From the NCBI GenBank assembly GCA_964017235.1, contig OZ024929.1, positions 26,347,464 through 26,411,463 on the forward strand: 64,000 bases of DNA. Reading direction: 5' to 3'. Below, one piece after another: positions 28,801 through 57,500 of this stretch (position 1 is the stretch's first letter; every line of letters begins with the position of its first letter). Origin of the DNA: Sabellastarte sp. h YS-2021. Lineage: Eukaryota; Annelida; Polychaeta; Sabellida; Sabellidae. The notes beneath the pieces were generated by a model. That model ran no database searches. It saw nothing but the letters and a program-made list of their open reading frames with translations, and was not told where the DNA came from. A program made the position numbers and the translations under genes.

Positions 28801-31800
28801 TATTTGTAAAATGTTGTTAGAAACCCCATTGTAGCCTCACGTTTTCATCACTCTGTGGGTGTACAACTACCAGCATTTGATATTTTATTTGTTTTAAATA
28901 TTGCGAGAAGACGGAGTGAGGTGCAGTGACAGTAAAATATTGCTGGATTATATATTTGTAAAATGTTGTTAGAAACCCCATTGTAGCCTCACGTTTTCAT
29001 CACTCTGTGGGTGTACAACTACCAGCATTTGATATTTTATTTGTTTTAAATATTGCGAGAAGACGGAGTGAGGTGCAGTGACAGTAAAATATTGCTGGAT
29101 TATATATTTGTAAAATGTTGTTAGAAACCCCATTGTAGCCTCACGTTTTCATCACTCTGTGGGTGTACAACTACCAGCATTTGATATTTTATTTGTTTTA
29201 AATATTGCGAGAAGACGGAGTGAGGTGCAGTGACAGTAAAATATTGCTGGATTATATATTTGTAAAATGTTGTTAGAAACCCCATTGTAGCCTCACGTTT
29301 TCATCACTCTGTGGGTGTACAACTACCAGCATTTGATATTTTATTTGTTTTAAATATTACGAGAAGACGGAGTGAGGTGCAGTGACAGTAAAATATTGCT
29401 GGATTATATATTTGTAAAATATTGTTAGAAACACCATTGTGGCCTCACGTTTTCATCACTCTGTGGGTGTACAACTATGTACCAGCATTTGATATTTTAT
29501 TTGTTTTAAATATTGCGAGAACACGGAGTGAGCTGCGGTGACAGTAAAAGATTGCTGGCTTACTGGTATATATTTGTAAAATATTATTAGAAACCCCATT
29601 GTAGCCTCACGTTTTCATCACTCACTTCTAGTACATGCAAAAGTGCCTTCGAGTGGTTGAATGTAGAACTACAGAGTTTGAATATTTTCATTGTCTCTGC
29701 CAGAGGTGTTCTCGAATCTGATTGGCTGAACAATAAATGTGTAGTACTACCGTGACGTCACTTCATTCATTAATTTCTTTGCGGTTTATTTGTTTCACAA
29801 ATTAGTAATAGGCTGTAGATGCGCAGACAACAATTTTACATTAACAGTGACTGCGTGATAAACCAGCAGACCAATAAATTAATTGGGGTTTCCACGTCTA
29901 GAAACCAGCAGACGAAACCGTTAAAAAAGACTCGTTCGAGTAGGCCATTACAATAGCAAACACAATAGTTTCTAGGACATCCGGGACCTTACAGAAAGCC
30001 AGACGTAGTACTAGACAAGCTTTTTACTTTATAAAATATAACTGAATAAAAGCATTAAAAATCTTCAAAATGGCAGAGTGTATAATATGCACCTTAATGT
30101 ACCGATATGTGAACAAATATTATGCAGAATTTGATATTTAAGGGTTTAAACGGCCAATTTAAAATCGTGGCCACAACTCAGTACATAACTCGAATCTACG
30201 ATTCGACTAAAAATTAATACACTATCATTACCAATGGCAACCCAAATGTTTCTATGACAATGGCAGCCTCTCTTTGGTCCTTCTCATTCATTGGTTCTGG
30301 CTCTCCCGTCACATTTCCTCCTGCAATACATGTGAGAGAATAGTGAACAAACATGGTCAGTCATTGATTTGTAACAGAAACTTTTCCATACAAACTTGTC
30401 AAAACCGGTGAAAACATGTGACACTTTAAATAAAAATACAACTGCATTTTCCAGGAATTTAAGTGTGGCAATGACCACAGTATATTGAACTGACCACTGA
30501 TATCATAACTGTGATGACATCACAATACCGAGACCTCACCATCATCTTAATAACTGACAATTTTTCAGTGCCAAAAAAAAATTCATTGGCTTTAAGCAAT
30601 TTTATCAATGTTAGAAAGAATCATAATTAAATATTGATTGTTGAAACATAGTCATATTAATTGACAAAAGATTAATTCTGAAGTTCTTAGCCATGTTTCA
30701 CGTTTTTCACAAAGATAATCACACGTTTTTTACAAACATAATGACAATCATTATCACACTAATGAGAAAATCTCTGACAAGTAAAACATATACATACCTC
30801 CAGCCTCATCTGTTACGTCGTCATCGTCTGGGTAAGGATTTCTGAAGATACAGGTACAGAATGTGACCCTCACAAAACTTTAACTCAGGCAATATCTTCA
30901 TTCACTTCTAAAAACATACTGCCTAAACCAAGCTCAGTGGCTGGCATAAAATGCCATATAATTCAAGATCATGTGACAAGAATTCAGGAAATGTGGAACA
31001 AATTGTATAAACAAAGCAAAATTCTTAAACAATGTCAAGACATAACACTGACAATCTATGTTGCGACTGGAATTAGTTTATAAATTTAAAATTTCATGAA
31101 AAGAAAATCCATTTATATATTTATTTAAAAATTCAAGGGAATGACGATATGGACATATACAAAACTTAAACACAGTGTCACTTGAAAAAATAGTATATAC
31201 ACATATGTTTCTATTATTACTTTACAATTGATTTTGATATGTACCACTGTAAAACATAACCACAAAATATAAACAAGGATTGGGGTAACACTTACCACAT
31301 GAACCATATTTACAAAAAACAGGGAAATGTAATCTTTTAATACATTCCATTCATAAGCACAGTGAATTGCTTATAAAGAATACAAGAATACATAAATCAT
31401 TGGTAGTGACAAGAATTATCACTTTATAACTATATACTACAGTTAAATTGGTGTAAGAGGAAGACTGTCAGTAGAATTCCCTTCAGAAGAAAAGCACATC
31501 TGGTCTCCAGGGTGTCATTTTCAAGAAGTTTACACTTTTATCTGGAATTGCTGTTTAAGTAGACATATTGTTCTGTTATTTTCATATTTCTCTTAACAGG
31601 GTTTTACTGTAGAATTAGATACATGTTAATATCTACATTAAGGAATTCTGATTAAATGCAATGCATACATGTACAACAATCCACATAACTGTTTTATAAA
31701 AAAAGTCACTTTTGTATGTACAAACCATTGTGTTTATTTTTAACGGAATGTCTTACTTAGTCGAGGGCAGAGGTCTTTCATCATAGGCAGTTTCGTGGTC

Positions 31801-33541: not shown

Positions 33542-36500
33542 CCCATCTTAATTTGGCCAACTTCTTAAATTGGCACAACAATGGAGAAAACAATATGTTC
33601 ATACTCTAACCAGTCATGATTGTTGGTACCAAAATATTACTTTGTAGGCTGCCTGCTGATAGGTCATGTGCTATATGAGGCAGAGTTTTCTATAACGCGC
33701 TCCTTAACAAGCACCGAAGAAAAGAATTAAGACAACCTGAAGTCAGTGCATATTCTTCCCTTGAATCCCACATTGCTGCTTTGTACTAAGGATGGGTTGT
33801 TAGCATATTTTTCATTTCGGGATCTCACCAGTTAAAAAATGTTTTGATAATAGGATTCTGAAAAAGGATGCATTCTAGTACACCCCCAAATGGATGGGCC
33901 ACTGACAGGAAGTGAAACTAATGAAAACAAAACATGGCAGTTTAAAGTTTTAGAACAAAATTGTTGTAAAAGTCGCCCCAAAAAAAAAATATATATATAT
34001 GGGATAAAAGTGCAGCCACAATTTTTTCAGATTTGAGGTTTGTTCCCATATTTACAGTTTTCCTTTGATTATATTGGTTGACAATTGAGATCATGGTGGT
34101 TGTAAAATGTTGTCCGGGTATTTCAGTAAAATGCTCTTGATGCATAGATACCAGTCCACCCACCCATTCCTACTTTGTATCTAGTTTTTCAATGAATTTG
34201 GACCATTTTGGGGGAACCAGGTGACCTGTCAAAGCCTTACGTAACAACATGTACCATTGTACCCAAAATGTACATCATAAAATCCTTTCACTTGTGTCTT
34301 CATAATAAAATTAATGCACTAATACTTAATTAACTAGATTGGGCCAACTCGGCGCCAACATATCCCCAGACAGGTCATCACTCACGCCACAGGTTTTGAT
34401 CGGGAATTTTTTATTTAATCCATTTGTTGTATGCCATAAATATTGGGAAAAGTTATATGAACTTCAGCACATCAATCTACTAAGTTTATATCTTCCCAAG
34501 GAAGATGGTGTATCCCCAGACGTCGAATACATAACTCAACAGATCATATTTTCAATCTTCCTGCAAAGGGTATTTAAATGATTGATGATTGAATGTCCAT
34601 TCTAAATTCATAATTCCAAAAGCGTATCTCTGTTTCTATATTTGTTCACAAATAAAATATTATTTAAAAATCATATATTATTTATATTATTATTTTATTA
34701 TATTATTTTTAGAATTTGCATTGTTTTTCAGTTATTCATTTCCTCAATTCCTATATATGTGGTCCATATATATGCAACCTAAATATGTGACACAATCTCA
34801 GTTCTGACTCCCTTTGTCTTAGATAATTAGATAATGAAGCAAACACCACCTCCCACCCCCACCTCTCTCCCCTTCTCCACACCTCTCTCACTATTACAGA
34901 AGATCTGTATACCTTTGTTTATTTAGTGTCACTCAATAGCTGGAGGTCCCAGAGGTGGGTGGGGGATGGGGGGTGGGACTACAAAGAGATGGAGTGCTGC
35001 AGCACAAATGGTAAACAAACACTTATAATATAAAAGGGGTAATCAAATACAAAAAGCTCAGTTAATCTTATCACTAAAATAAAATCAAATATATATATAA
35101 GGAATGTCCAACAGGAAGATTATATACCTCCAGAATTAAATATAAATTATCAAACGACAAGAACAGATTTATAATAATAATTCAGAATTGAGAATTTTAA
35201 GTATGTGATTATCAATTGAAATGAGTTCGTAACTGTAGGAGCTGTGTCAAAATTAAGGCAAGTTGAATAAAACTGGGCTAGTTGAGGGTTAAAAATCCCC
35301 TATTTTTACTACATAAGGCTATAATTTCATTAATATTTGGGACTTAAAGCTCACCAGAAAATAACAGTGTCCATTTTGCCTACTTGAATATATTTAACCA
35401 GTTTCATATTAAAAAGTTAAAAACTCAGCAAGTAGAGAGATAACACACAAAAATAAGTTCTTAAAAGCCTAAGATAGCCATAACATTATTAATATTCAAA
35501 ATTTAGATAGACAGGCACTTCCTTTGAAAAATTCAAAGATTTCAGCTCTATGAGCCACATAGTTTGACAGTTACAGGGCTTTAAAGTGGCATAATATCCA
35601 TAAATTGGGTCTCTGTGGGCATTTTACAATTGTTAAAGAGACCTTAGCAATTAAACTACAGAACTGAAACTTTTTGGGGGCATACACAACAAACAAAAAT
35701 TATATATAATACAGTTTAAGACTTGTCACACTAAGCATTTCCAAATAACAGGGCAAAATACAGAAAAAAATGTCAAAAAAGGTCACTTGGGCAAGTGTCT
35801 ATGGCCCTCATACACAGGTTAAATGTCTACTAAAAGCCTTGATTTTCGGCACATGTGAAAAGGACATAATAATGCATTCCCAGATGGGATTTCAGCTCAA
35901 TCAATCACATAGTTTAACAGTCACAGGGCTTAAAGGTGGCAAAAAGTCCAAATATTGGGACTCTGTGGGCCTTTTAGAGATCTCGATGTGGCCTTCAAAT
36001 TAAAGCATCAGACTTAAAATCTGCTACATACTAAGACTACACATAGAATATGTATCTAATAATAAAGTTTGAAACTTCTCAGACTCACCATTTCCAAGTT
36101 ACAGAGCAAAATATGTGAAAAATGTCTTAAAACGGTCACTCGGGTGGGTGTTAATGGTCCTCATACAGAGTTTAAATGTCTACTTGAAGCCTTGATTTTT
36201 GGCACATGTAAAAAGAACATAATAATGTATTCCCAGATGAGATTTCAGCTCTATCAGTCGCATAGTTTAACAGTCATGGGCCTTAAAACTGGCAAAAAGT
36301 CCAAAATAGTGGGTCTCTATGGGGCCTTTTAGAGACCTCAATGTGGCCTTCAAATTAAAGCTTCAGACTTAAAATTTGTCACATACTAAGATTACACATA
36401 GAATATGTATCTAATACAGTTTGAAACTTCTCAGACTTACCATTTCCAAGTTACAGGGCAAAATATGTGAAAAATGTCTAAAAAGGGTCACTCGGGTGGG

Positions 36501-39500
36501 GATTTATGGTCCTCAAACACAGGTTAAATGTCTACTTAAAGCCTTGATTTTCGGCACATGTAAAAAGGACATAATAATGCATTCCCAGATGGGATTTCAG
36601 CTCCATCAATAACATAGTTTAACAGTCACAGGGCTTAAAGGTGGCAAAAAGTCCATATATTGGGTCTTTGGGAGCCTGTCAGAGACCTCAATTTGACCTT
36701 CAAATTAAAGCTTCAGACTTAAAATCTGTTACATACTAACATTACACATAGAATATATATCTAATACAGTTTGAAACTTCTCAGACTTACCATTTCCAAG
36801 TTACAGAGCAAAATATGTGAAAAATGTCTTAAAAGGGTCACTCGGGTGGGTGTTTATGGTCCTCATACATGGGTTAAATGTCTATTAAAGGCCTAAATTT
36901 TGGAGTACATACAAGAAAAACATATTGATATATTCTCAGATGATATTTCACTTAGATGAGAGACATAGTTTGAAAGCTACAGTGCTTGAAGATGGCAAAA
37001 AGTCCATAAATTGGGTCTCTGTGGGCAATTTTGAGATCTTAAGTCGGCCTAACAGGTAAACCTACAGCCTTTAAATTTTTCACAGACAAGGATTACATAT
37101 AAGAGTTACATCTAGTGCAGTTTGAGACTCATCGGAATTACCACTTCCAAATTATAGGGCAAAATAAGTTAAAAATATAGGAAAAAAGTCCTAAGTGGGG
37201 TCTTTATGGGCCTCAAAGACAATTTTCTCCTCAACTTAGTCTTGATTTTCGGCACATGTACTAAGAATATATTAATGTGTTCTCAGGTAAAATTTGAGGC
37301 AGATAAGCCTCATAGTTTGTGACCTAGAGGGCTCTAAGTGGCCAAAAGTGCAATTTCTGACCTTAAGGTGGCCATAAGTTCTTTATTATTGGGAGTTTAA
37401 GGTCACCTTAAAATAGGGATCTTCCTTTGGACATCCTTAACATGTGTACCAAGTTTGAAAAAAAAATATTAATCCATTTTTGAGTTATCGCGTCCACAAG
37501 GAAATTTCTACGGCGGCGGCGCGACGGACCTGAATCCAATATATCCCCGACTTTCGTCTGGGGATATAATTAATTAAGGCTCTTAGCTACATAGTACCCA
37601 GATGAGAAGAGCTTGGGTTTTACTGGGAAGGGTGGAGCAGACATATCAGTCAGGGGTGAAAGTGCAGGCTTGTTAGTTGCAGGAGAGTCGGCATTCAAAG
37701 TATGCTCTACCCTGTGAAATGGGTGATATAATGTGATTAAAGGGACAACACAAATGGCAAAACATGAATAAATAACAACAAAAATTCAGGTTATATATCG
37801 CTTCATGAAAAAAAATATACTTACCTTACATATGAGAGTGCATGCCTTGAGTCCCCCAAAGTCAAGATTTCTTTCCGATTGTTTTAGTCACAGAATAGAC
37901 TTTAGGTGGGTATTTGAAACTCCACTTTAAACATTGATCTGACTCAGATTACTTGAACTCGTAAAAAGCAATTAACAAAATGGGGATACCAAATCAGTCA
38001 AATGCTATGCCATATTTTTGTCACTGGAGACACTTTGAAGTTCCATTCAGAATTAGACAAAGTCAGTACTTCGCTGTGTGAAAGGTATAAACTGTTGGCC
38101 GCACAATCACACTGAGCTAAATGATACACTATTCTAGTGACTTTTGTTTTAGCTTCTCTACATTAATAAGCAAAAGGAAATGCACAAGTTAACCGAAGTG
38201 TTCAATCATTCCTTCACAAGCTGATCATTTGAAAAAAGAACACATTCAGGATTCAGATTGAAATGTAAAGGAATTAACAATTTGCTATATATTTTCCAAT
38301 TATCTAATTTATAAAAAATGTTCATACATGTATTTATATTTTGGAATTCACAGGGAAACAAATCATAAAAAACCCGCTTGTAGAAGATTCTGATTAAATA
38401 ATGTCCTTTGTTTTAGATTTGAAATGTTTTCATTTGTTACTAGTTTTCAGATATACAGCAAAGAGTAAATGCGTTCACCTTTCAGACACCAATAGAATAT
38501 GTGCAGCCAATAAACAACAGTTATACGAGGAACACATTTAAAAAGAGAACTGGTGCATTGGGATTGGTCCTCACTTGTCCTGAGACTTCTTTGCTCGACT
38601 GGTGTCTAATCTGTCAGGCTTTTTATCAGTCACATTTCTGTCTGCTTCACGTTTCACTTTGCTGTGTGGTTATTTGAGGGTTAGAATATGTACACATACG
38701 TATGTTATAACAAAAGGAATTGAAAAGCAATGAATGTACAACAGAAGGTCAGACTAATATCTAACTCAGCTACTTTAATTTTTGAATGTTATTATTGTAA
38801 AAAGTAGCATGCCAATTAAATTAATATAAATTTTTGTTTTAGTAACATCTTTGATTGTCCTATTGACTGTCTGGTTTTACACAGGAAGAAGAAATCATAA
38901 ATCAAAAGCTAGTCTATCAGATGGTCCAATGGGTGAAATTGTACAAAATTAAAAGTTGCTTAATTGTACTTATATAATGTGTTAGTTGTTATTTGTTATA
39001 CACTACACACTACTGGTATCAGACACCATACAGTGGAAAGAGCATTATTAAGAGTGAAGACTCATCACACAGCAAAACCCTCAAATTCAATTGTAACTCA
39101 TACACAGGACATACAGTATGAGACAAGACCAGAACATGCATGACTCAAATCTCATGTTTATTATCCACCGCGCGTTGTATTTGACCCATATAAAGGGATA
39201 CATGGAGCAGGATATATTTTATTTGTATACAACGGCGCCTCTGTACCATGGATAACTTGTGTCAACAACTTCCAGTTTTTCACCAATATCTCAGAAACTA
39301 TGTTACCTACAAAATTATGTATTATATATCATTAGAAAGGTGGTTTTATAGCACTTCTGCCATGTGTGTTGCATAAAAATCCATGCAGAAATAAAGGAGC
39401 TATTGCAAGTGAAAGATTGAAGTTTTGATATTCATTGTTGCCTGTGCTTTTTGACAGCCTTTTCACATTCTCTCATTAAATATTCATGTTATTTAACCCA

Positions 39501-42500
39501 TAAATCGTACAAAATGGTGGTTAATAAAAGTAAAACATCCCTCATTGGACATATACAGAAAAAATATATCCCTCATGAAGATTAACAATATAATACTTGT
39601 GCTGCACACTCGTATAATATTATCTTCATTTGTACAGGTGATATATTTTTTCTGTATATGTCATTCGAGAAGTTTTCCTATTATGTTCAGGGTATGAATG
39701 TATATTTGGGGAACATCATTGTACTCACTCAGCGATAGCTCAAGACATGATGGTTGAGTGGAGGAATGTTTTTCTCAGGATTTAGTCAACAGTATTTTTG
39801 GGGAAAATCAGTGATATATTCACATGGTAATAGCTGGGAAATGCTAGTTAAGTGAAAAGGATATAAAAAAGTGTCCTCTATATATATCAGGTATATATAT
39901 CACTATACTTGGCACTAGTAGATCTACCCTTGTCTAAGTACAAGTATTTTTCAGATACACAAATCGTGCGATACACAGATGTATATTCTGTCAGGAACGG
40001 ACTTAATATTTTGGGACTATGGGGAGAATGTAACTTAACTTTCTTGGCAATGGCTGAGATATCCTGACTAAATACAAGTATTTTTCAGATGCCAAAATCA
40101 TGTGGTACACTGGCATATCATTTTTATAACAGGTAACTGTATACTTTAAGGTTTATCAGGGGGATGTGACTTTATTTACATGGTAATGGGAAATTATGAT
40201 TATGTAGGTGTAGGTATTTTTGTGATGTTACTGTTTCTTCTGTACTCAAGCCAGTACTCACTTTGAGATTGCCGGCAGTGGTCTCTCATCATTAGGCTGA
40301 GGTGAGTAGGTGCGGGCTGGTGGTAATGGGGTGTTTGCTAGCTCTGACAGTAGACGAGGAGGGGTCTGCTGTCTGGGCGGGTCTGAAATACACATATCAA
40401 TTCATTTTCCATTCACAATAAACAGACCATAAAGAGAGATTACTTATGATCTACATAGGTAGAAAATTTAGTGGGGAAAAAATATTTCACAAATTTCCAA
40501 ATTTTGAAAAAACTAGAAATAGGACGCCCTGTTGATAGTAGATGCGAATAGAAACAGGATAGCATAGAACACACATTACCATGTGTAATGTCCACCCCAT
40601 GAACCTTGCCCAAATTGTACAGTAGTCTTACAAGACCCTGTTTCATTTGTAAAATATATGAATGATGCTTAAATATTTATTAGTGTAGATGTAAATGATT
40701 TCAGCTTCATGCCTTTTTGCATTGGTTGGGTTGAAAATTTTGACGAAATCACTCTATCTTGCACGGTTAAGAAGATAGAAGCAAATTCCTGTTTTTCTAT
40801 TTTTGGCAAAAATTTGAAAATTCAAAATGGCCGCCATTTTTGGGAAAAGGAAATTTTTTTGAAAATTGCCAAGAGTACATTTCTTAGATACCCCATGGGT
40901 CGAAAATTTCAACGAAATAACTCTATTTTGCACGGTTAAGGCCAGTTTGTGTTTTTCCATTTTGGGCAAAAATTCGAAAATTCAATATGGCCGCCATATG
41001 TGGGGAGGGGAAAATTTTTGGAAAATTGCAAAGATTACATTCCTTAGATACCCTGTGGGTTGAAAATTTCGACGAAATCGCTCTATCTCGCATGGTTAAG
41101 GAGATAGAAGCAAATTTGTGTTTTGCCATTTTTGGCAAAAATTAAAAAATTCAAAATGGCCGCCATTTTAGGGGAGGGGAAATTTTTTTGAAAATTGCAA
41201 AGATTACATTCCTTAGATACCCTGTGGGTTGAAAATTTCGACGAAATCGCTCTATCTCGCATGGTTAAGGAGATAGAAGCAAATTTGTGTTTTGCCATTT
41301 TTGGCAAAAATTAAAAAATTCAAAATGGCCGCCATTTTAGGGGAGGGGAAATTTTTTTTTAAATTGCCAAGAATACAATGCTCAAATACCTGTGGGTCGA
41401 AAATTTTGACGAAATCGCTCTATCTCGCACGGTTAAGGAGATAGAAGGAAATTTGTGTTTTGCCATTTTTGGGGAGGGGAAAATTTTTTAAAAATTTTAA
41501 AGATTACATTCCTTAGATACCCTGTGGGTCGAAAATTTCGACGAAATCGCTCTATCTCACACAGTTAAGGAGATAGAAGGAAATTTGTGTTTTGCCATTT
41601 TTGGCAAAAATTCGAAAATTCAAAATGGCCGCCATTTTTGGGGAGGGGAAAACTTTTTAAAAATTGGCAAGAGTACAACTCTCAGATACCCTGTGGGTCG
41701 AAAATTTTGCCGAAATCGCTCTATCTCGCACGGTTAAGGAGATAGAAGCAAATTAGTGTTTTGCCATTTTTGGCAAAAATTCTAAAATTCAAAATGGCCG
41801 CCATTTTTGGGGAGGGGAAAATTTTTTAAAAATTACCAAGAGTACAATGCTGAGATACCCTGTGGGTCGAAAATTTTGACGAAATCACTCTATCTCGCAC
41901 GGTTAAGGAGATAGAAACAAATTTGTGTTTTGCATTTTTGGCAAAAATTCTAAAATTCAAAAATGGCCGCCATTTTTGGGGAGGGGAAAATTTTTGGAAA
42001 ATTGCAAAGATTGCATTCCTTAGATACCCTGTGGGTCGAAAATTTCGACGAAATCGCTCTATCTCGCACGGTTAAGGAGATAGAAGCAAATTTGTGTTTT
42101 GCCATTTTTGGCAAAAATTCGAAAATTCAAAATGGCCGCCATTTTAGGGGAGGGGAAATTTTTTTTTAAATTGCCAAGAATACAATGCTCAAATACCTGT
42201 GGGTCGAAAATTTTGACGAAATCGCTCTATCTCGCATGGTTAAGGAGATAGAAGGAAATTTGTGTTTTGCCATTTTTGGGGAGGGGAAAATTTTTTAAAA
42301 ATTTTAAAGATTACATTCCTTAGATACCCTGTGGGTCGAAAATTTCGACGAAATCGCTCTATCTCACACAGTTAAGGAGATAGAAGGAAATTTGTGTTTT
42401 GCCATTTTTGGCAAAAATTCGAAAATTCAAAATGGCCGCCATTTTTGGGGAGGGGAAAACTTTTTAAAAATTGGCAAGAGTACAACTCTCAGATACCCTG

Positions 42501-45500
42501 TGGGTCGAAAATTTTGCCGAAATCGCTCTATCTCGCACGGTTAAGGAGATAGAAGCAAATTAGTGTTTTGCCATTTTTGGCAAAAATTCTAAAATTCAAA
42601 ATGGCCGCCATTTTTGGGGAGGGGAAAATTTTTTTAAAAATTACCAAGAGTACAATGCTGAGATACCCTGTGGGTCGAAAATTTTGACGAAATCACTCTA
42701 TCTTGCACGGTTAAGGAGATAGAAACAAATTTGTGTTTTGCATTTTTGGCAAAAATTCTAAAATTCAAAATGGCCGCCATTTTTGGGGAGGGGAAAATTT
42801 TTTGAAAATTGCATAGAGTCGAAAATTTCGACGAAATCGCTCTATCTAGCATGGTTAAGGAGATAGAAGCAAATTTGTGTTTTGCCATTTTTGGCAAAAA
42901 TTCGAAAATTCAAAATGGCCGCCATTTTTGGGGAGGGGAAAACTTTTTAAAAATTGGCAAGAGTAGAATTGTCAGATACCCTGTGGGTCGAAAATTTTGC
43001 CGAAATCGCTCTATCTCGCACGGTTAAGGAGATAGAAGCAAATTAGTGTTTTGCCATTTTTGGCAAAAATTCTAAAATTCAAAATGGCCGCCATTTTTGG
43101 GGAGGGGAAAATTTTTTTTAAATTACCAAGAGTACAATGCTGAGATACCCTGTGGGTCGAAAATTTTGACGAAATCACTCTATCTTGCACGGTTAAGGAG
43201 ATAGAAACAAATTTGTGTTTTGCATTTTTGGCAAAAATTCTAAAATTCAAAATGGCCGCCATTTTTGGGGAGGGGAAAATTTTTGGAAAATTGCAAAGAT
43301 TGCATTCCTTAGATACCCTGTGGGTCGAAAATTTCGACGAAATCGCTCTATCTCGCATGGTTAAGGAGATAGAAGCAAATTTGTGTTTTGCCATTTTTGG
43401 CAAAAATTCGAAAATTCAAAATGGCCGCCATTTTTGGGGAGGGGAAAACTTTTTAAAAATTGGCAAGAGTAGAATTGTCAGATACCCTGTGGGTCGAAAA
43501 TTTTGCCGAAATCGCTCTATCTCGCACGGTTAAGGAGATAGAAGCAAATTAGTGTTTTGCCATTTTTGGCAAAAATTCTAAAATTCAAAATGGCCGCCAT
43601 TTTTGGGGAGGGGAAAATTTTTTAAAAATTACCAAGAGTACAATGCTGAGATACCCTGTGGGTCGAAAATTTTGACGAAATCACTCTATCTTGCACGGTT
43701 AAGGAGATAGAAACAAATTTGTGTTTTGCATTTTTGGCAAAAATTCTAAAATTCAAAATGGCCGCCATTTTCGGGGAGGGGAAAATTTTTGGAAAATTGC
43801 AAAGATTGCATTCCTTAGATACCCTGTGGGTCGAAAATTTTGCCGAAATCGCTCTATCTCGCACGGTTAAGGAGATAGAAGCAAATTAGTGTTTTGCCAT
43901 TTTTGGCAAAAATTCTAAAATTCAAAATGGCCGCCATTTTTGGGGAGGGGAAAATTTTTTGAAAATTGCATAGAGTCGAAAATTTCGACGAAATCGCTCT
44001 ATCTAGCATGGTTAAGGAGATAGAAGCAAATTTGTGTTTTGCCATTTTTGGCAAAAATTCGAAAATTCAAAATGGCCGCCATTTTTGGGGAGGGGAAAAC
44101 TTTTTAAAAATTGGCAAGAGTAGAATTGTCAGATACCCTGTGGGTCGAAAATTTTGCCGAAATCGCTCTATCTCGCACGGTTAAGGAGATAGAAGCAAAT
44201 TAGTGTTTTGCCATTTTTGGCAAAAATTCTAAAATTCAAAATGGCCGCCATTTTTGGGGAGGGGAAAATTTTTTTTAAATTACCAAGAGTACAATGGTGA
44301 GATACCCTGTGGGTCGAAAATTTTGACGAAATCACTCTATCTTGCACGGTTAAGGAGATAGAAACAAATTTGTGTTTTGCATTTTTGGCAAAAATTCTAA
44401 AATTCAAAATGGCCGCCATTTTTGGGGAGGGGAAAATTTTTGGAAAATTGCAAAGATTGCATTCCTTAGATACCCTGTGGGTCGAAAATTTTGCCGAAAT
44501 CGCTCTATCTCGCACGGTTAAGGAGATAGAAGCAAATTTGTGTTTTGCCATTTTTGGCAAAAATTAAAAAATTCAAAATGGCCGCCATTTTAGGGGAGGG
44601 GAAATTTTTTTGAAAATTGCAAAGATTACATTCCTTAGATACCCTGTGGGTTGAAAATTTCGACGAAATCGCTCTATCTCGCATGGTTAAGGAGATAGAA
44701 GCAAATTTGTGTTTTGCCATTTTTGGCAAAAATTAAAAAATTCAAAATGGCCGCCATTTTAGGGGAGGGGAAATTTTTTTTTAAATTGCCAAGAATACAA
44801 TGCTCAAATACCTGTGGGTCGAAAATTTTGACGAAATCGCTCTATCTCGCACGGTTAAGGAGATAGAAGGAAATTTGTGTTTTGCCATTTTTGGGGAGGG
44901 GAAAATTTTTTAAAAATTTTAAAGATTACATTCCTTAGATACCCTGTGGGTCGAAAATTTCGACGAAATCGCTCTATCTCACACAGTTAAGGAGATAGAA
45001 GGAAATTTGTGTTTTGCCATTTTTGGCAAAAATTCGAAAATTCAAAATGGCCACCATTTTTGGGGAGGGGAAAACTTTTTAAAAATTGGCAAGAGTACAA
45101 CTCTCAGATACCCTGTGGGTCGAAAATTTTGCCGAAATCGCTCTATCTCGCACGGTTAAGGAGATAGAAGCAAATTAGTGTTTTGCCATTTTTGGCAAAA
45201 ATTCTAAAATTCAAAATGGCCGCCATTTTTGGGGAGGGGAAAATTTTTTAAAAATTACCAAGAGTACAATGCTGAGATACCCTGTGGGTCGAAAATTTTG
45301 ACGAAATCACTCTATCTCGCACGGTTAAGGAGATAGAAACAAATTTGTGTTTTGCATTTTTGGCAAAAATTCTAAAATTCAAAATGGCCGCCATTTTAGG
45401 GGAGGGGAAATTTTTTTTTAAATTGCCAAGAATACAATGCTCAAATACCTGTGGGTCGAAAATTTTGACGAAATCGCTCTATCTCGCACGGTTAAGGAGA

Positions 45501-48500
45501 TAGAAGGAAATTTGTGTTTTGCCATTTTTGGGGAGGGGAAAATTTTTTAAAAATTTTAAAGATTACATTCCTTAGATACCCTGTGGGTCGAAAATTTCGA
45601 CGAAATCGCTCTATCTCACACAGTTAAGGAGATAGAAGGAAATTTGTGTTTTGCCATTTTTGGCAAAAATTCGAAAATTCAAAATGGCCACCATTTTTGG
45701 GGAGGGGAAAACTTTTTAAAAATTGGCAAGAGTACAACTCTCAGATACCCTGTGGGTCGAAAATTTTGCCGAAATCGCTCTATCTCGCACGGTTAAGGAG
45801 ATAGAAGCAAATTAGTGTTTTGCCATTTTTGGCAAAAATTCTAAAATTCAAAATGGCCGCCATTTTTGGGGAGGGGAAAATTTTTTAAAAATTACCAAGA
45901 GTACAATGCTGAGATACCCTGTGGGTCGAAAATTTTGACGAAATCACTCTATCTCGCACGGTTAAGGAGATAGAAACAAATTTGTGTTTTGCATTTTTGG
46001 CAAAAATTCTAAAATTCAAAAATGGCCGCCATTTTTGGGGAGGGGAAAATTTTTGGAAAATTGCAAAGATTGCATTCCTTAGATACCCTGTGGGTCGAAA
46101 ATTTCGACGAAATCGCTCTATCTCGCACGGTTAAGGAGATAGAAGCAAATTTGTGTTTTGCCATTTTTGGCAAAAATTCGAAAATTCAAAATGGCCGCCA
46201 TTTTAGGGGAGGGGAAATTTTTTTTTAAATTGCCAAGAATACAATGCTCAAATACCTGTGGGTCGAAAATTTTGACGAAATCGCTCTATCTCGCATGGTT
46301 AAGGAGATAGAAGGAAATTTGTGTTTTGCCATTTTTGGGGAGGGGAAAATTTTTTAAAAATTTTAAAGATTACATTTCTTAGATACCCTGTGGGTCGAAA
46401 ATTTCGACGAAATCGCTCTATCTCACACAGTTAAGGAGATAGAAGGAAATTTGTGTTTTGCCATTTTTGGCAAAAATTCGAAAATTCAAAATGGCCGCCA
46501 TTTTTGGGGAGGGGAAAACTTTTTAAAAATTGGCAAGAGTACAACTCTCAGATACCCTGTGGGTCGAAAATTTTGCCGAAATCGCTCTATCTCGCACGGT
46601 TAAGGAGATAGAAGCAAATTAGTGTTTTGCCATTTTTGGCAAAAATTCTAAAATTCAAAATGGCCGCCATTTTTGGGGAGGGGAAAATTTTTTTAAAAAT
46701 TACCAAGAGTACAATGATGAGATACCCTGTGGGTCGAAAATTTTGACGAAATCACTCTATCTTGCACGGTTAAGGAGATAGAAACAAATTTGTGTTTTGC
46801 ATTTTTGGCAAAAATTCTAAAATTCAAAATGGCCGCCATTTTTGGGGAGGGGAAAATTTTTTGAAAATTGCATAGAGTCGAAAATTTCGACGAAATCGCT
46901 CTATCTAGCATGGTTAAGGAGATAGAAGCAAATTTGTGTTTTGCCATTTTTGGCAAAAATTCGAAAATTCAAAATGGTCGCCATTTTTGGGGAGGGGAAA
47001 ACTTTTTAAAAATTGGCAAGAGTAGAATTGTCAGATACCCTGTGGGTCGAAAATTTTGCCGAAATCGCTCTATCTCGCACGGTTAAGGAGATAGAAGCAA
47101 ATTAGTGTTTTGCCATTTTTGGCAAAAATTCTAAAATTCAAAATGGCCGCCATTTTTGGGGAGGGGAAAATTTTTTTTAAATTACCAAGAGTACAATGCT
47201 GAGATACCCTGTGGGTCGAAAATTTTGACGAAATCACTCTATCTTGCACGGTTAAGGAGATAGAAACAAATTTGTGTTTTGCATTTTTGGCAAAAATTCT
47301 AAAATTCAAAATGGCCGCCATTTTTGGGGAGGGGAAAATTTTTGGAAAATTGCAAAGATTGCAATCTTAGATACCCTGTGGGTCGAAAATTTCGACGAAA
47401 TCGCTCTATGTCGCACGGTTAAGGAGATAGAAGCAAATTTGTATTTTGCCATTTTGGGCAAAAATTCGAAAATTCAAAATGGCCGCCATTTTTGGGGAGG
47501 GGAAAATTTTTTGAAAATTGCAAAGATTGCAATCTTAGATACCCTGTGGGTCGAAAATTTCGACGAAATTGCCCTATCTCGCACGGTTAAGGAGATAGAA
47601 GGAAATTTGTGTTTTGCCATTTTTGGCAAAAATTCGAAAATTCAAAATGGCCGCCATTTTTGGGGAGGGGAAAACTTTTTCAAAATTGGCAAGAGTAGAA
47701 TTGTCAGATACCCTGTGGGTCGAAAATTTTGCCGAAATCGCTCTATCTCGCACGGTTAAGGAGATAGAAGAAAATTTGTGTTTTGCCATTTTTGGCAAAA
47801 ATTCTAAAATTCAAAATGGCCGCCATTTTTGGGGAGGGGAAAATTTTTTTTAAATTACCAAGAGTACAATGCTGAGATACCCTGTGGGTCGAAAATTTTG
47901 ACGAAATCACTCTATCTTGCACGGTTAAGGAGATAGAAACAAATTTGTGTTTTGCATTTTTGGCAAAAATTCTAAAATTCAAAATGGCCGCCATTTTTGG
48001 GGAGGGGAAAATTTTTGGAAAATTGCAAAGATTGCATTCCTTAGATACCCTGTGGGTCGAAAATTTCGACGAAATCGCTCTATCTCGCATGGTTAAGGAG
48101 ATAGAAGCAAATTTGTGTTTTGCCATTTTTGGCAAAAATTCTAAAATTCAAAATGGCCGCCATTTTTGGGGAGGGGAAAATTTTTGGAAAATTGCAAAGA
48201 TTGCATTCCTTAGATACCCTGTGGGTCGAAAATTTTGACGAAATCGCTCTATGTCGCACGGTTAAGGAGATAGAAGCAAATTTGTGTTTTGCCATTTTTG
48301 GCAAAAATTCTAAAATTCAAAATGGCCGCCATTTTTGGGGAGGGGAAAATTTTTGGAAAATTGCAAAGATTGCAATCTTAGTAACCCTGTGGGTCGAAAA
48401 TTTCGACGAAATCGCTCTATCTCGCACGGTTAAGGAGATAGAAGCAAATTTGTGTTTTGCCATTTTTGGCAAAAATTCGAAAATTCAAAATGGCCGCCAT

Positions 48501-51500
48501 TTTTGGGGAGGGGAAAATTTTTTGAAAATTGCAAAGATTGCAATCTTAGATACCCTGTGGGTCGAAAATTTCGACGAAATCGCTCTATCTCGCACGGTTA
48601 AGGAGATAGAAGCAAATTTGTGTTTTGCCATTTTTGGCAAAAATTCTAAAATTCAAAATGGCCGCCATTTTTGGGGAGGGGAAAATTTTTGGAAAATTGC
48701 AAAGATTGCATTCCTTAGATATACTGTGGGTCGAAAATTTCGACGAAATCGCTCTATCTCGCACGGTTAAGGAGATAGAAGGAAATTTGTGTTTTGCCAT
48801 TTTTGGCAAAAATTCGAAAATTCAAAATGGCCGCCATTTTTGGGGAGGGGAAAACTTTTTCAAAATTGGCAAGAGTAGAATTGTCAGATACCCTGTGGGT
48901 CGAAAATTTTGCCGAAATCGCTCTATCTCGCACGGTTAAGGAGATAGAAGAAAATTTGTGTTTTGCCATTTTTGGCAAAAATTCTAAAATTCAAAATGGC
49001 CGCCATTTTTGGGGAGGGGAAAATTTTTTTTAAATTACCAAGAGTACAATGCTGAGATACCCTGTGGGTCGAAAATTTTGACGAAATCACTCTATCTTGC
49101 ACGGTTAAGGAGATAGAAACAAATTTGTGTTTTGCAATTTTGGCAAAAATTCTAAAATTCAAAATGGCCGCCATTTTTGGGGAGGGGAAAATTTTTGGAA
49201 AATTGCAAAGATTGCATTCCTTAGATACCCTGTGGGTCGAAAATTTCGACGAAATCGCTCTATCTCGCATGGTTAAGGAGATAGAAGCAAATTTGTGTTT
49301 TGCCATTTTTGGCAAAAATTCTAAAATTCAAAATGGCCGCCATTTTTGGGGAGGGGAAAATTTTTGGAAAATTGCAAAGATTGCATTCCTTAGATACCCT
49401 GTGGGTCGAAAATTTTGACGAAATCGCTCTATGTCGCACGGTTAAGGAGATAGAAGCAAATTTGTGTTTTGCCATTTTTGGCAAAAATTCTAAAATTCAA
49501 AATGGCCGCCATTTTTGGGGAGGGGAAAATTTTTGGAAAATTGCAAAGATTGCAATCTTAGTAACCCTGTGGGTCGAAAATTTCGACGAAATCGCTCTAT
49601 CTCGCACGGTTAAGGAGATAGAAGCAAATTTGTGTTTTGCCATTTTTGGCAAAAATTCGAAAATTCAAAATGGCCGCCATTTTTGGGGAGGGGAAAATTT
49701 TTTGAAAATTGCAAAGATTGCAATCTTAGATACCCTGTGGGTCGAAAATTTCGACGAAATCGCTCTATCTCGCACGGTTAAGGAGATAGAAGCAAATTTG
49801 TGTTTTGCCATTTTTGGCAAAAATTCTAAAATTCAAAATGGCCGCCATTTTTGGGGAGGGGAAAATTTTTGGAAAATTGCAAAGATTGCATTCCTTAGAT
49901 ATACTGTGGGTCGAAAATTTCGACGAAATCGCTCTATCTCGCACGGTTAAGGAGATAGAAGGAAATTTGTGTTTTGCCATTTTTGGCAAAAATTCGAAAA
50001 TTCAAAATGGCCGCCATTTTTGGGGAGGGGAAAACTTTTTCAAAATTGGCAAGAGTAGAATTGTCAGATACCCTGTGGGTCGAAAATTTTGCCGAAATCG
50101 CTCTATCTCGCACGGTTAAGGAGATAGAAGCAAATTTGTGTTTTGCCATTTTTGGCAAAAATTCTAAAATTCAAAATGGCCGCCATTTTTGGGGAGGGGA
50201 AAATTTTTTTTAAATTACCAAGAGTACAATGCTGAGATACCCTGTGGGTCGAAAATTTTGACGAAATCACTCTATCTTGCACGGTTAAGGAGATAGAAAC
50301 AAATTTGTGTTTTGCATTTTTGGCAAAAATTCTAAAATTCAAAATGGCCGCCATTTTTGGGGAGGGGAAAATTTTTGGAAAATTGCAAAGATTGCATTCC
50401 TTAGATACCCTGTGGGTCGAAAATTTCGACGAAATCGCTCTATCTCGCATGGTTAAGGAGATAGAAGCAAATTTGTGTTTTGCCATTTTTGGCAAAAATT
50501 CGAAAATTCAAAATGGCCGCCATTTTTGGGGAGGGGAAAACTTTTTAAAAATTGGCAAGAGTAGAATTGTCAGATACCCTGTGGGTCGAAAATTTTGCCG
50601 AAATCGCTCTATCTCGCACGGTTAAGGAGATAGAAGCAAATTAGTGTTTTGCCATTTTTGGCAAAAATTCTAAAATTCAAAATGGCCGCCATTTTTGGGG
50701 AGGGGAAAATTTTTTTTAAATTACCAAGAGTACAATGCTGAGATACCCTGTGGGTCGAAAATTTTGACGAAATCGCTCTATGTCGCACGGTTAAGGAGAT
50801 AGAAGTAAATTTGTGTTTTTCCATTTTTGGCAAAAATTCGAAAATTCAAAATGGCCGCCATTTTTGGGGAGGGGAAAATTTTTTGAAAATTGCAAAGATT
50901 GCAATCCTTAGATACCCTGTGGGTCGAAAATTTTGACGAAATCGCTCTATCTCGCACGGTTAAGGAGATAGAAGCAAATTTGTGTTTTGCCATTTTTGGC
51001 AAAAATTCTAAAATTCAAAATGGCCGCCATTTTTGGGGAGGGGAAAATTTTTGGAAAATTGCAAAGATTGCATTCCTTAGATATCCTGTGGGTCGAAAAT
51101 TTCGACGAAATCGCTCTATCTCGCACGGTTAAGGAGATAGAAGGAAATTTGTGTTTTGCCATTTTTGGCAAAAATTCGAAAATTCAAAATGGCCGCCATT
51201 TTTGGGGAGGGGAAAATTTTTGGAAAATTGCAAAGATTGCATTCCTTAGATATCCTGTGGGTCGAAAATTTTGGACGAAATCGCTCTATCTCGCACGGTT
51301 AAGGAGATAGAAGGAAATTTGTGTTTTGCCATTTTTGGCAAAAATTCGAAAATTCAAAATGGCCGCCATTTTTGGGGAGGGGAAAACTTTTTAAAAATTG
51401 GCAAGAGTAGAATTGTCAGATACCCTGTGGGTCGAAAATTTTGCCGAAATCGCTCTATCTCGCATGGTTAAGGAGATAGAAGCAAATTAGTGTTTTGCCA

Positions 51501-54500
51501 TTTTTGGCAAAAATTCGAAAATTCAAAATGGCCGCCATTTTTGGGGAGGGGAAAATTTTTGGAAAATTGCATAGATTGCATTCCTTCGATACCCTGTGGG
51601 TCAAAAATTCTGTCGAAATCGCTCTATCTCTTACGGTTTCTGAGATATTAGCAAATTACTCAAAAGTAGTACTGAAAATACACAATGAAGTACCGAAATG
51701 GCTATTACTCATGTACTGACAAAGCTATCAGTCCCAAATGCAATACCAAGCGAGCTATGGACATAACAATCTTGTATTCAAAATTGTAGTAAAATATCTT
51801 TAATTATTTTGGCTTAAATGCACGGAAACCAATGGGTACTGAAAATAGCTGTACTTAAGTATTACTCAGTAAGCAAAAGAGGTACAACAGCCAAAAGCAA
51901 TCCCAAGCAAGCTACTGACCCAATAAGCCTGCATACCAAATTTGGTGACAATAGCTCTAATACTTTTCCTTTAAATGAGCGGAAACCATGCGTGATGCCG
52001 GACATCGGACGCCGGACATCAGACAACGGACATCGGACGGCAGAAAAAGCAAAAATAATATATCCACCCCCCAGGGGGGTGGACATAATCACTGGAACTA
52101 ATTTTCAGTAAAGTTCATTACCTACTCAAGAAATTTATAGACTGAAACTTTCAAGGGGAATTAATCTCTACTATCTAAAATCATTAGTTGAAAGAGTTAA
52201 AGCTATAAATCCAACACTATAAACTATTTCCCAATTAACAGAAAGTCATGAATTCATAACAGTAAAACTTAATATGTCCAAACTGTTCCCATAATGTTAT
52301 ATTAATCCAATATATTTGACAAAATCATGCTTAATAGGTTATATGTCATGAATAACATAAGGTCTGCCAGTATTAAGTTAAAACATTGTGAAACAGATTT
52401 TTTACAATAATTATTTCATTTAAGTTAACACCACTTTTTAATATCTCTTATACACCTTACAAAACCAGCGTTTGAAAATACATTTTACATGTGTATAATT
52501 GAAATTCAAAGAACTATAATGTGAAAAGTTAAACTGTTGAAAAACTTACCATAACCATAATCATGAGGCTGTGAAGGTCTCGGCTAAAAATACAAAATAG
52601 AAAAAGAAAATAGCTCATTATGTAACTTAAATTAAATCTTTTTTTTTTCTCAAATTAAACTAACAGATAGTTTAAAAAATCCTCCAATTTTCAAAGGTTA
52701 GGCTTTGTTGTCAAGTAAATACAAGTAAATTCAAATACAAAATGATTTAGAAGCATTGACCATCATGGATGTCATACAAAATAATGAAATATTGCCATAT
52801 GACACCCATCTTACAGCTGACAAAAATATCTCTTTGCTTTGAATTATGGGCCACACTGAACAATTCCTGATTCAGGCCATATGTCTTTGTAAACTTTTTC
52901 TTGGGGAACACAGTGACTTATTTATCTCATTTCGGACACTGTCCACTGTGCACTTGTAAATTAGTTACTCAGACAATATTATATCAACACATGGTCATGC
53001 ACAAGTAAAGAGTTGGTATCACATAGGGATGATGTCAGTAGGTCCAGTGTCTCGGTATCGAGAGCATTTTAATGAAATACCGTAAGAAAATTTGAAATCT
53101 GGCACTTCGTCTGTCAACACATATAACTGAAGGAAAACTTTAAATGTTAGAAGCATAACCCAAATCTGGATAAATCATAAGCTTTATCAAATATTTTCGT
53201 GCATTTGCAGACTTTTATACTGATTACTGATATCGTTGAGCAGACCTGCCATGTTATGGTTACAAAATTTCATAACCTCAAGCTCGCTTGTCAACACATA
53301 TAATAGAAGGACATCTTAAAATATTGAAAACAAACTACAATTTGAAGAAACTACAAAAGGTTATCTCATATTTTGTGCATTTGGGGACTTATAGTGTTAT
53401 TTTGTTTACAGGAAACGTCCATGTTTGATTGGTGTGTACTAAAATGCTAAGTCCCTGAATCGGTACAGTTTTTATTGGTGGCCTCCCAATGTACACATTT
53501 TTGATACCAACCCATGCCTTGTGTGGAGTGCTGAAATAATTTGCCACAGTTTGAACTAATCTTACCCCTGTTATATCCAACAGATCATCCAGATCCAGCC
53601 TCTGATATGACTGCAGTCGGTACTCGTCAAGTTGAATCTTCTTCAGTTTGGCCTTGTCATAGTCCTCATTCTCAACAGCCTGTCGCTTCTCCACCTCAAA
53701 CTTACCTAGCTTCTCTCCAACCTACAGAAATTAACGCAAATCTTACATCAATTAACACAAACTAACCAACTTCTCTCCAACCTACAGAAATTAATGCAAA
53801 TCTTACATCAATTAACACAAACTAACTTCTCTCCAACCTACAGAAATTAACACAAATCTTACATCAATTAACACAAACTAACCAGCTTCTCTCCAACCTA
53901 CAGAAATTAATGCAAATCTTACATCAATTAACACAAACTTACCCAGCTTCTCTCCAACCTACAGAAATTAATGCAAATCTTACATCAATTAACACAAACT
54001 AACCAACTTCTCTCCAACCTACAGAAATTAACGCAAATCTTACATCAATTAACACAAACTAACCAACTTCTCTCCAACCTACAGAAATTAATGCAAATCT
54101 TACATCAATTAACACAAACTAACTTCTCTCCAACCTACAGAAATTAACACAAATCTTACATCAATTAACACAAACTAACCAGCTTCTCTCCAACCTACAG
54201 AAATTAATGCAAATCTTACATCAATTAACACAAACTTACCCAGCTTCTCTCCAACCTACAGAAATTAATGCAAATCTTACATCAATTAACACAAACTAAC
54301 CAACTTCTCTCCAACCTACAGAAATTAATGCAAATCTTACATCAATTAACACAAACTAACCAACTTCTCTCCAACCTACAGAAATTAACACAAATTTCTA
54401 TCAATTAACACAAACTAACCAACTTCTCTCTAACATGAATAAAAAGACAATGGAATACAAACGCAAATTTATACTCATTTACATAAAATGATAAAAATTT

Positions 54501-57500
54501 TTTTTAAAAATACCATTTATAAAGCTGAGTTATTCAACGGGTACTAAATAAAGGCCTTTTATGACAAGTCCAAGTAAAAATGGCCAAAACACATGAGATC
54601 TGATCAATTTATGTATATGCAATTTATACACTGCAATATCTCCTAACTACAGCGCTCAAAATACTATGCTTACCACAACTTCAATAGTGCAGTCAAAGCT
54701 AGAATGACTGACACTTGTCCAACAGAAAAACAGAGGCTAAGAGATGACCATTTATTAAGGCCCAAGGGGCTGTGGCTGTCAACTGGAAATAGGACCCAAT
54801 GTGAGGGGCCGTCATTTTAAATTGTCATCCTAACCACCATGTGTTTGCCTGTACTTGGCATCGAACCCAAGTCCTCTCTGTTTGCAGACTACTGTGTGTT
54901 ACCCACCAGGTCGACAGTGTCATATAATCAGCCAATAATCATCCCAGAGGGTCAATTTTCATATTCTACATAAATCAGTGTTCAAATGGTGGATAAACAA
55001 TCCCTACCTTTTGCAAGTCTTGTATGGCTGCCTTGAGTTTCTTGGCATAGTCATATTTCTCCTCTGAAATTAACACAACATCAAAGAACTTTTAACTTTT
55101 TTCTTTTACTCCCCCGAATATGCAGAAATTCTCAAATAAACTTTATTCCTTAACATTTATTAATACAGGTTCCCGATTTAAAAATAAGTGAAGAAATAAT
55201 TTTATATTATAAACACTACAGAGTTTGACAATATCTCTTTGCTTAAAATAATGATTTTTGTAGCTTTTACAAGCATTGAGAGAAAAAGGCTTTGACCAAA
55301 AATAAAAATTCTTACACTTTATAAAGTTTGTATATAACATCAATACACTTTTATAAGATATTAAACCATCCATGTTTCTGGAGTATTTCAATAAGCTTCT
55401 AACACTTGTAAATATAATGGCATGGTATTCATTAACTACACAATAAAGTGGTATTTTCACATTTTCTTTCTGTACCGCAGCACTTACGTAGCACTGCCTC
55501 CTGTTTTTTGGCCTCCAGTTTGCGTATGATGCCTCCCACCTCTGGGTCCTGGTACATGTCAAAAGCAAGGTCATCCAGGGGAGAGATGTAATCTGGTCTG
55601 AAAGGGATGATTTGCATATGACAAGGCATGAGGAACCTGCTTACCACCATGTTGAGTATCTGGCTACTAGTGGCCAAGGGTGAATGGTAGTAGAAACTAA
55701 CAGAGCCAGCTTAAAACAATATTAAAGAAGTCTACAACTTTGTTTATAAACTTTTATTTTTACATAAGACAAATCAGATAAAGTGAGGTCCCCAAGCCTT
55801 TAGCTTGTTTTCCTAACTGTTGCTTTGGTCAGCAGTAGTAGCTGCCAGATTCCAGGTTGGTGCTGTGTTGACCTGAGCTAACTTAAGTCATGTTCATAGT
55901 CTGTTTTTCAGGCACCATATATGGAGGTATTTAAGACTATATTAAAGTAGGAGGTGCTATGTAGCGGCTATATTTGAGGCAAAATATGGGGTATGCACGT
56001 GACACACAGATAATGCTGAATTTACCTGTTAAAGAGGCCAGCCATGGCAGGGTCTGAAGGAGTCTTCTCATCGTCAACATAAAGCTGTTGAAACAAAGAG
56101 AGGATGTGTAGAAACTAAAAACAATGTAAAAATATTAAATCAACATCTGAATTATTAATTCAGTTGTCTTGTTTCCAGTGGCTTCAATTCCTGTTAGTGG
56201 AACTATTTACATGGAAGGATACACTACAAAGTCCAATATGGCAACATTTTCAAATGTTGTTAAGCGCTAGCTCTAGTGAAGCCCGCACTTCTAGAGATCT
56301 TTTTTTATTTTATTTATTTTTTTTTTGTCACCAGACTTTTATGAATTATGGTGGAGCATGATGAGTACCAATGATAACGCAGCAATGGGCTATGTTATTG
56401 CTTGGATGGACGACCGTCAGAGTTATAGGCCAGGTATGGAATCTGACTTGGAATGTGTTTTTGTCGCCAGACTTTCATAAACTCTATTTCATTACTTGTG
56501 TCTCTGATGGCTTTGCGGCCCATGCATGTTGACCAAAACACTTTTTATCCTTGTTCAGTGAATTATTCTTGCTATTTACTCTGCATTTTATCATGCGGTT
56601 TCTTTTAGGGGTGAGACAGGGTCCCCGGGTCCCCGCTATCGAGTGGTGCTGACGTCATATCCGACGAAACAAATCTACAAACGGATTACCCGTAATCTTG
56701 TACATCTTGAATGTTGTGTTTTATTTTGTCTTTTAATCACCTTTTTGCTAACCTAGCAACCATCGGACTTTCACTTCCTGTGAAATCACCTGAGCCTCAC
56801 TTTGGAATCAGATACTTATTTCCTGTGCACATGTAAACATACCTTGGTGAAAGATTAAATGGTTGATACTGACAGATTTATGGATAATTATTGGGGGTAA
56901 GTTGCTTTATATCTTATATTTGGAGGTTGAATGCAATTTTCCTTGATATTTTATCCACTTGCATGAATATTGCAGGTACTCGAAATCGGGCCGGGTTTTA
57001 CGTAACGAGCTCCCGGTCCCATAATTCCAGGCCCGTCTCACCCCTAGTTTCTTTTTGGTGTACACTTTATCAAGCTCATTTTTCAATTGTTATTATCTGA
57101 AATTGTATTTACATAATTTATGTACTAAACAATACATACCCCGGGTTTTGTGTTGTAGGCATCATCTCCAATTATATTAATAGCAACTAGACCAACCTTA
57201 AGGAAATAATAAATGTACATTGTTAAAATATGAAATCCACCACAAACAAGTTGCAAAATTTTCTGTAATAAATAAACTGCATAAAGTTACAAAACAATCA
57301 CAAATGAACATGCTATCATTCTAAGTAAAATAAAGGGGTTTTGAGTGGTGAAATTCACATAGTATTACTGTATCCCATGCAAGAATAACTATCTTAAGAT
57401 TATTCAACAGGTCACCCAACTAAGTAATATATACTATTAGGAATATAGTATTCAACAGAAATAAAACATTACTTTGCAAGATTTATTTTCAGCACAGGCT

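Follow-up and report, generated by a model that had tools for sequence, protein, structure and literature searches.

How can a gene choose a single 3' splice site when the end of its intron and the start of its exon are repeated twelve times in a row? The question is raised by a CEP104 gene on the minus strand of the DNA analysed here, a stretch of 64,000 nucleotides (the window) with a GC content of 36%. In this gene a minisatellite at positions 53697..54434 (minus strand) spans an exon boundary, covering the 3' end of intron 8 together with 25 nt from the start of exon 9, and presents 12 acceptors.

The CEP104 gene and the exon 9 junction

Six of the ten open reading frames (ORFs) scanned on the minus strand matched a CEP104 family of Pfam, one of them just at the cut-off. 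The best values were 8.9e-20 for CEP104_N, 3.3e-18 for the CEP104-like TOG domain and 3e-15 for the CEP104 zinc finger (ZnF), and the TOG end of the window also matched the CEP104 TOG entries 5lph and 5jo8 of the PDB. The exons near the array bear the provisional numbers 7, 8 and 9, which were taken over from the first-pass annotation. Exon 7 (110 nt, 55488..55597, minus strand) lies between TTTCAG and GTAAGTG and joins exon 8 in frame, according to the ORF list and direct reading. Exon 8 (56 nt, 55008..55063, minus strand) ends with EKYDYAKKLKAAIQDLQK and is followed by the donor AAG|GTAGGG at 55007. Exon 9 (156 nt, 53566..53721, minus strand) extends from VGEKLGKFEVEKRQAVENEDYDKAKLKK to DITG, is in phase 0 at both ends, joins exon 8 in phase and has the donor GGG|GTAAGA at 53565. 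The predicted in-frame join of exons 7, 8 and 9 reads ...EAVLQEKYDYAKKLKAAIQDLQK-VGEKLGKFEVEKRQAVENEDYDKAKLKK..., and acceptor mapping places the authentic AG, site 12, at 53722..53723 (minus strand). Because the exon 9 ORF gave only sub-threshold UVR motif scores in Pfam, assignment of the junction rests on the reading frame, the splice signals and the neighboring exons. The exon 7 ORF had no Pfam match, a search of solved structures with the peptide joined from exons 7-9 gave no credible relative (best E 0.11), and exon 9 had no match in a search against phages.

The window contains other repeats as well. A satellite array of approximately 11 kb (40727-51657) with a 169-bp unit and further periods of 132, 145, 337 and 469 bp separates exon 9 from the TOG exons and is therefore apparently contained in a CEP104 intron. 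In the CEP104 region, a probably recent array at 28604-29623 consists of 6.6 copies of a 152-bp unit with 97% matches, and the arrays at 35701-37176 and 6712-7709 have units of 352 bp and 147/441 bp, respectively. The stretches 17108-17339 and 22028-22258 yield near-identical translations in opposite orientation (e.g. RALDIRLSTTTTAQARTCADKGSPLVTRIFLKKF) and probably represent copies of a mobile element. When the six large array regions, from a total of 43 TRF rows, were compared with ten exon stretches picked out of the ORF list by hand, a few of them with approximate edges, the array at the exon 9 boundary was the only one that overlapped an exon.

Structure of the boundary array

TRF assigned the array at 53697-54434 a period of 60, 12.4 copies, 93% matches and a score of 1253. 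Together with a comparison of the units, this bears out the claim of the first-pass annotation that the intron end, the AG and the first bases of exon 9 form a tandemly repeated unit. The acceptor TTTCTGTAG|GTTGGAGAGAAG occurs in 12 exact copies, namely the real site at 53721 and 11 decoys. A pattern count of the junction 21-mer TTTCTGTAGGTTGGAGAGAAG gave these 12 exact copies on the minus strand, with none added when three mismatches were permitted. The earlier figure of about twelve identical acceptors was thus accurate, and since a count of 12 was reached in none of 100 shuffles (mean 0.00), a chance origin of the junctions is ruled out.

The distance from acceptor to acceptor is 60 bp in seven units, 61 bp in two and 56 bp in two, and the 11 units, when split at the acceptor, fall into five distinct sequences. 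The exon part of the 61-bp units contains GTTGGAGAGAAGCTGGGTAAGTTTG where the other units have GTTGGAGAGAAGCTAGGTAAGTTTG, which suggests that the ancestral unit probably measured 61 bp, composed of 36 nt of intron end and 25 nt of exon start. The two 61-bp units, located at 54195..54255 and 53898..53958 (both minus strand), proved identical when the units were compared; past one mismatch, 24 of their 25 exon nucleotides agree with the real exon start. Among all decoys, the unbroken match to the real exon start is 12 nt in seven and 14 nt in four. The previously noted two identical five-unit blocks of 297 bp are also present: the sequence at 54007..54328 (minus strand) repeats 53710-54031 exactly over 322 nt, at a shift of 297, in the form of a five-unit block duplication. 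At the left edge, a partial unit (54376..54431, minus strand) has diverged and carries GATAGAAAT in place of the donor-like GATGTAAGA.

Two of the 11 units (54135-54194 and 53838-53897) contain an internal echo in which TTTGTGTTAATTGATGTAAG and TTTGTGTTAATTTCTGTAGG lie 21 bp apart and share 17 of 20 nucleotides; with a composite unit as query, a similarity this high was reached by 3 of 400 random stretches. A single older segment may have given rise to both the weak donor-like site and the acceptor, or the echo may reflect the convergence of splice signals. The 13-nt sequence TTGTGTTAATTTC at 55066-55078, directly before exon 8, recurs three times in the array (four matches versus 0.01 expected) and may stem from an ancient duplication or, again, from splice-signal convergence.

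Throughout the genome, all 12 exact matches to the junction were at the array. Allowing two mismatches added two further matches, the same number as obtained with a reversed control pattern, and for a 901-bp query a single place was reported in the 647 contigs. Within the reach of these searches, a dispersed repeat or a paralogous copy was rejected. At 30 kinase loci (110,601 bases, 29 TRF rows with a period of at least 15), no array occurred within 80 bases of 60 domain-match edges, a weak comparison in that such edges are not proven exon ends; the window and these loci together are too small a sample to judge the frequency of boundary arrays in this animal.

Donor-like sites

Donor-like sites were evaluated by their pairing energy with U1, using equal 13-nt contexts and the human U1 end. 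The real donors of exons 7, 8 and 9 yielded -6.8, -9.7 and -9.2 kcal/mol. All three are surpassed by a donor-like GT inside exon 9 itself (53704..53705, minus strand), 16 nt into the exon, where CTAG|GTAAGT forms a U1 duplex of -10.6 kcal/mol. This strong donor would have been carried along with the duplicated exon start. Within the array, GTAAGT at +16 is intact in the two 61-bp units (-10.3 kcal/mol) and weakened or lost in the other nine: the seven 60-bp units have GTTAGT (-5.2 kcal/mol), and the site of the two 56-bp units scores -1.7 kcal/mol. An intact 61-bp unit, such as that at 54195..54255, is thus divided into a 16-nt exonic part and a 45-nt interval, GTAAGT...CTGTAG, that ends at the next AG. 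A single 16-nt micro-exon would shift the frame.

The first-pass annotation had instead pointed to a micro-exon donor about 36 bases after the AG. Such a motif, GATGTAAGA, does occur in all 11 units, with the GT placed 31-36 nt downstream of the AG, but GAT|GTAAGA pairs weakly with U1 in every unit (-4.3 kcal/mol; equally strong pairing is seen for 23% of the 3470 GT contexts on the minus strand). It was therefore rejected as a micro-exon donor; the strong +16 donor had been overlooked.

Decoy acceptors and the consequences of their use

Each of the 11 decoys shares the sequence of the real acceptor between positions -13 and +12 at least. Over the 45 nt that precede the site, decoys 2-11 deviate from the real sequence at 0-2 nt; for decoy 1 an ungapped comparison gives 18 differing positions. 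The most extreme case is decoy 7 (decoy 54018, AG at 54019..54020, minus strand), which equals the real site over 322 nt, of which 310 are upstream in the intron and 12 downstream in the exon; its rejection must therefore rest on the exon body or on distance.

Use of a decoy, joined in phase to exon 8, would lead to an in-frame stop at nt 27 in nine of the 11 cases and at nt 78 in the two 61-bp units, in agreement with the previous observation that most units run into a stop within about 30 bases whereas the 61-bp units stay open to their end. The further claim that only the last acceptor provides the right frame holds because of these stops and not because of length, as the extensions of seven decoys are multiples of three and preserve the length frame. 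The predicted exon comprises 156 nt from the real acceptor versus 216-810 nt from the decoys. The predicted intron measures 1286 nt if it ends at the real site and 632-1226 nt if it ends at a decoy.

Related systems

Tandem repeats across intron/exon boundaries are described in PMC3087553 as lancelet "mirages", with Adh3 and the globin genes BflGb6 and BflGb9 as examples. In BflGb6 the repeated segment comprises an intron's 3' end and the 5' part of the exon, with 6 and 3 units in two haplotypes; length instability is reported, and the gain of introns from mirages is proposed (PMC3087553). PMC3902484 adds mirages in PGBD5, with units of 60 and 108 bp, and in TnC. Many mirage units bear AG/GT signals, and their arrays are described as evolving in concert inside and diverging at the edges. 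RT-PCR data on Adh3 and the globins suggest that regular splicing is undisturbed, with cryptic use being possible (PMC3087553), and for the Adh and TnC mirages the mRNA is stated to be undisturbed (PMC3087553, PMC3902484).

The CEP104 array resembles these repeats. Its unit combines intronic and exonic sequence over a splice junction, here predicted from the frame, and as in BflGb6 it is the intron 3' end and the exon 5' part that are repeated. The many copies carry AG/GT signals (12 exact acceptors, a strong GT in two of 11 units), and the interior has the pattern of concerted evolution and the edge has diverged, as seen in the five types among 11 units, the identical blocks and the left-edge unit. 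The unit of approximately 60 bp is also similar to the 60-bp unit of PGBD5. The differences are the gene, CEP104, and the number of copies, 12 acceptors compared with 6 and 3 repeat units in BflGb6. With a genome of 1.79 Gb and the 36% GC of the window, the host is also not evidently a lancelet. The lancelet genome comprises about 0.5 Gb. A boundary repeat of this type is therefore a kind already described, of which the first-pass annotation was unaware, and the array is a real, well-defined further example of it rather than a new mechanism. A literature search that combined CEP104, tandem repeats and splicing returned no paper with a relevant title, and a search for boundary arrays outside lancelets found no mollusc case of the same kind, which is no proof of absence.

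Splice-site repeats are also present in human genes. In CBS, a 31-bp VNTR that spans the junction of exon 13 and intron 13 duplicates a splice signal, as does the CEP104 array, but on the donor side and with a shorter unit. In intron 18 of ABCA7, a VNTR of 25-bp units, the first two bases of which are the GT of the exon 18 donor, correlates in length with expression, and skipping of the next exon increases as it becomes longer, whereas two frame-shifting events stayed the same whatever the VNTR size (PMC5954066). Both ABCA7 and CEP104 thus have a minisatellite at a splice site; unlike the CEP104 array, that of ABCA7 sits at a donor, and its length has been shown to correlate with skipping and expression (PMC5954066). 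Boundary repeats in duplicated human genes may form new introns, according to PMC2812944. A plant example is the potato RdRp gene, in which an intron was gained from a duplicate that crossed intron and exon and recruited a GTAAG from the exon (PMC4974935). In CEP104 the duplicate likewise runs from the 3' end of the intron into the 5' end of the exon, where a cryptic GTAAG donor is present, but in potato one duplication generated a new intron that is used whereas here there are many copies and any new intron would be putative. The two 61-bp units have both the acceptor and GTAAGT and correspond to the potato type by geometry only (16 + 45 nt).

How the array may be tolerated

In the model that we favor, and which is probably correct, the array is a passive minisatellite of the mirage type, and the exon-proximal acceptor is chosen by exon definition. 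The boundary would have been duplicated and the copies then amplified and homogenised. Because the real and the decoy acceptors are nearly equal in their local signals, the choice would fall to exon definition: the acceptor nearest to the donor of exon 9 itself would be taken, giving the 156-nt exon rather than one of 216-810 nt with stops. Any mRNA spliced to a decoy would be removed by nonsense-mediated decay, and the gain and loss of units among the copies would be expected mostly to be without effect. CEP104 would thereby be spliced correctly past the decoys. The anatomy of the array, the homology of its exon parts, the stops, the exon and intron lengths, the single locus and the lancelet parallels all make this model the probable one. 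In PMC9225289, exon definition is said to favor the splice sites closest across the exon, and the human acceptor data there back the exon-proximal rule in part: of competing 3' sites the upstream one is preferred overall, strongly so with intron definition and to a significantly smaller degree with exon definition. Against the model stand that same upstream preference (PMC9225289), which in CEP104 would select decoys, the 322-nt identity of decoy 7 and, by analogy, the ABCA7 precedent that a splice-site VNTR can alter exon inclusion (PMC5954066).

The near-identity of the decoys to the real site, their early stops and the human upstream preference would also fit a scenario in which splicing goes to decoys appreciably often and, through premature stops, reduces the productive output of CEP104. 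CEP104 is probably required for cilia, so that a strong loss should be selected against. Exon definition lessens the upstream preference (PMC9225289), and the lancelet mirages are thought to be harmless to splicing (PMC3087553, PMC3902484). As the 3'-site data of PMC9225289 are less clear, we regard the passive model as probable rather than firmly established and appreciable decoy use as unlikely, if worth keeping in mind. It is rather doubtful that the number of copies sets the frequency of exon 9 inclusion. Exon 9 is symmetric (156 nt, phase 0-0), and skipping would therefore remove 52 residues and leave the protein frame intact, which together with the skipping of an exon next to the ABCA7 VNTR (PMC5954066) makes such a rheostat conceivable; the two ABCA7 events that did not vary with VNTR size and the splicing neutrality attributed to lancelet mirages speak against it. 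A stronger version, in which selection on splicing has kept the acceptors intact and eliminated the +16 donor in nine of 11 units while copy number tunes in-frame exon 9 skipping, is quite improbable. By a hand count, three of the four kinds of unit variation lie within 10 nt around the +16 donor, and under uniform placement a hand estimate for this clustering is about 0.016, a post hoc, uncorrected value that is sensitive to the way of counting and derives from non-independent copies. Since the units are not independent, the donor losses may be one or two events that were subsequently copied, and GTTAGT (-5.2 kcal/mol) comes fairly close to the real donor of exon 7 (-6.8 kcal/mol). If selection of this kind did operate, it would amount to length-coded control of a ciliary protein.

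An error of assembly, either a wrong copy number or a wrong duplicate of the 322-nt exact block, is very improbable. The block copies are exactly identical, and one BflGb6 array is reported to have been misassembled in its draft version (PMC3087553), but five distinct unit types with indels mean that the array cannot come from one mis-joined unit, and no second copy of the locus was reported in the 647 contigs. Hardly to be expected is an intron or micro-exon in the process of birth, for which the 61-bp unit, with its 16-nt exonic piece and its 45-nt GTAAGT...AG, has the layout seen when tandem duplication produces an intron. Its donor (-10.3 kcal/mol) exceeds the real ones, the layout resembles that of the potato gain (PMC4974935), and intron gain from mirages has been proposed (PMC3087553). 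The donor, however, is weakened or lost in most units, and one 16-nt insert breaks the frame. An interval of 45 nt is, moreover, very short for an animal intron.

The locus is an unusually clean natural experiment: a single gene offers twelve 3' splice sites that match, and one decoy cannot be told from the real site over 322 nt. As this identity leaves distance and the exon body as the main cues, RNA reads would directly test the rules of exon definition and proximity. If the host is not a lancelet, repeated boundary minisatellites of this kind would not be peculiar to lancelets.
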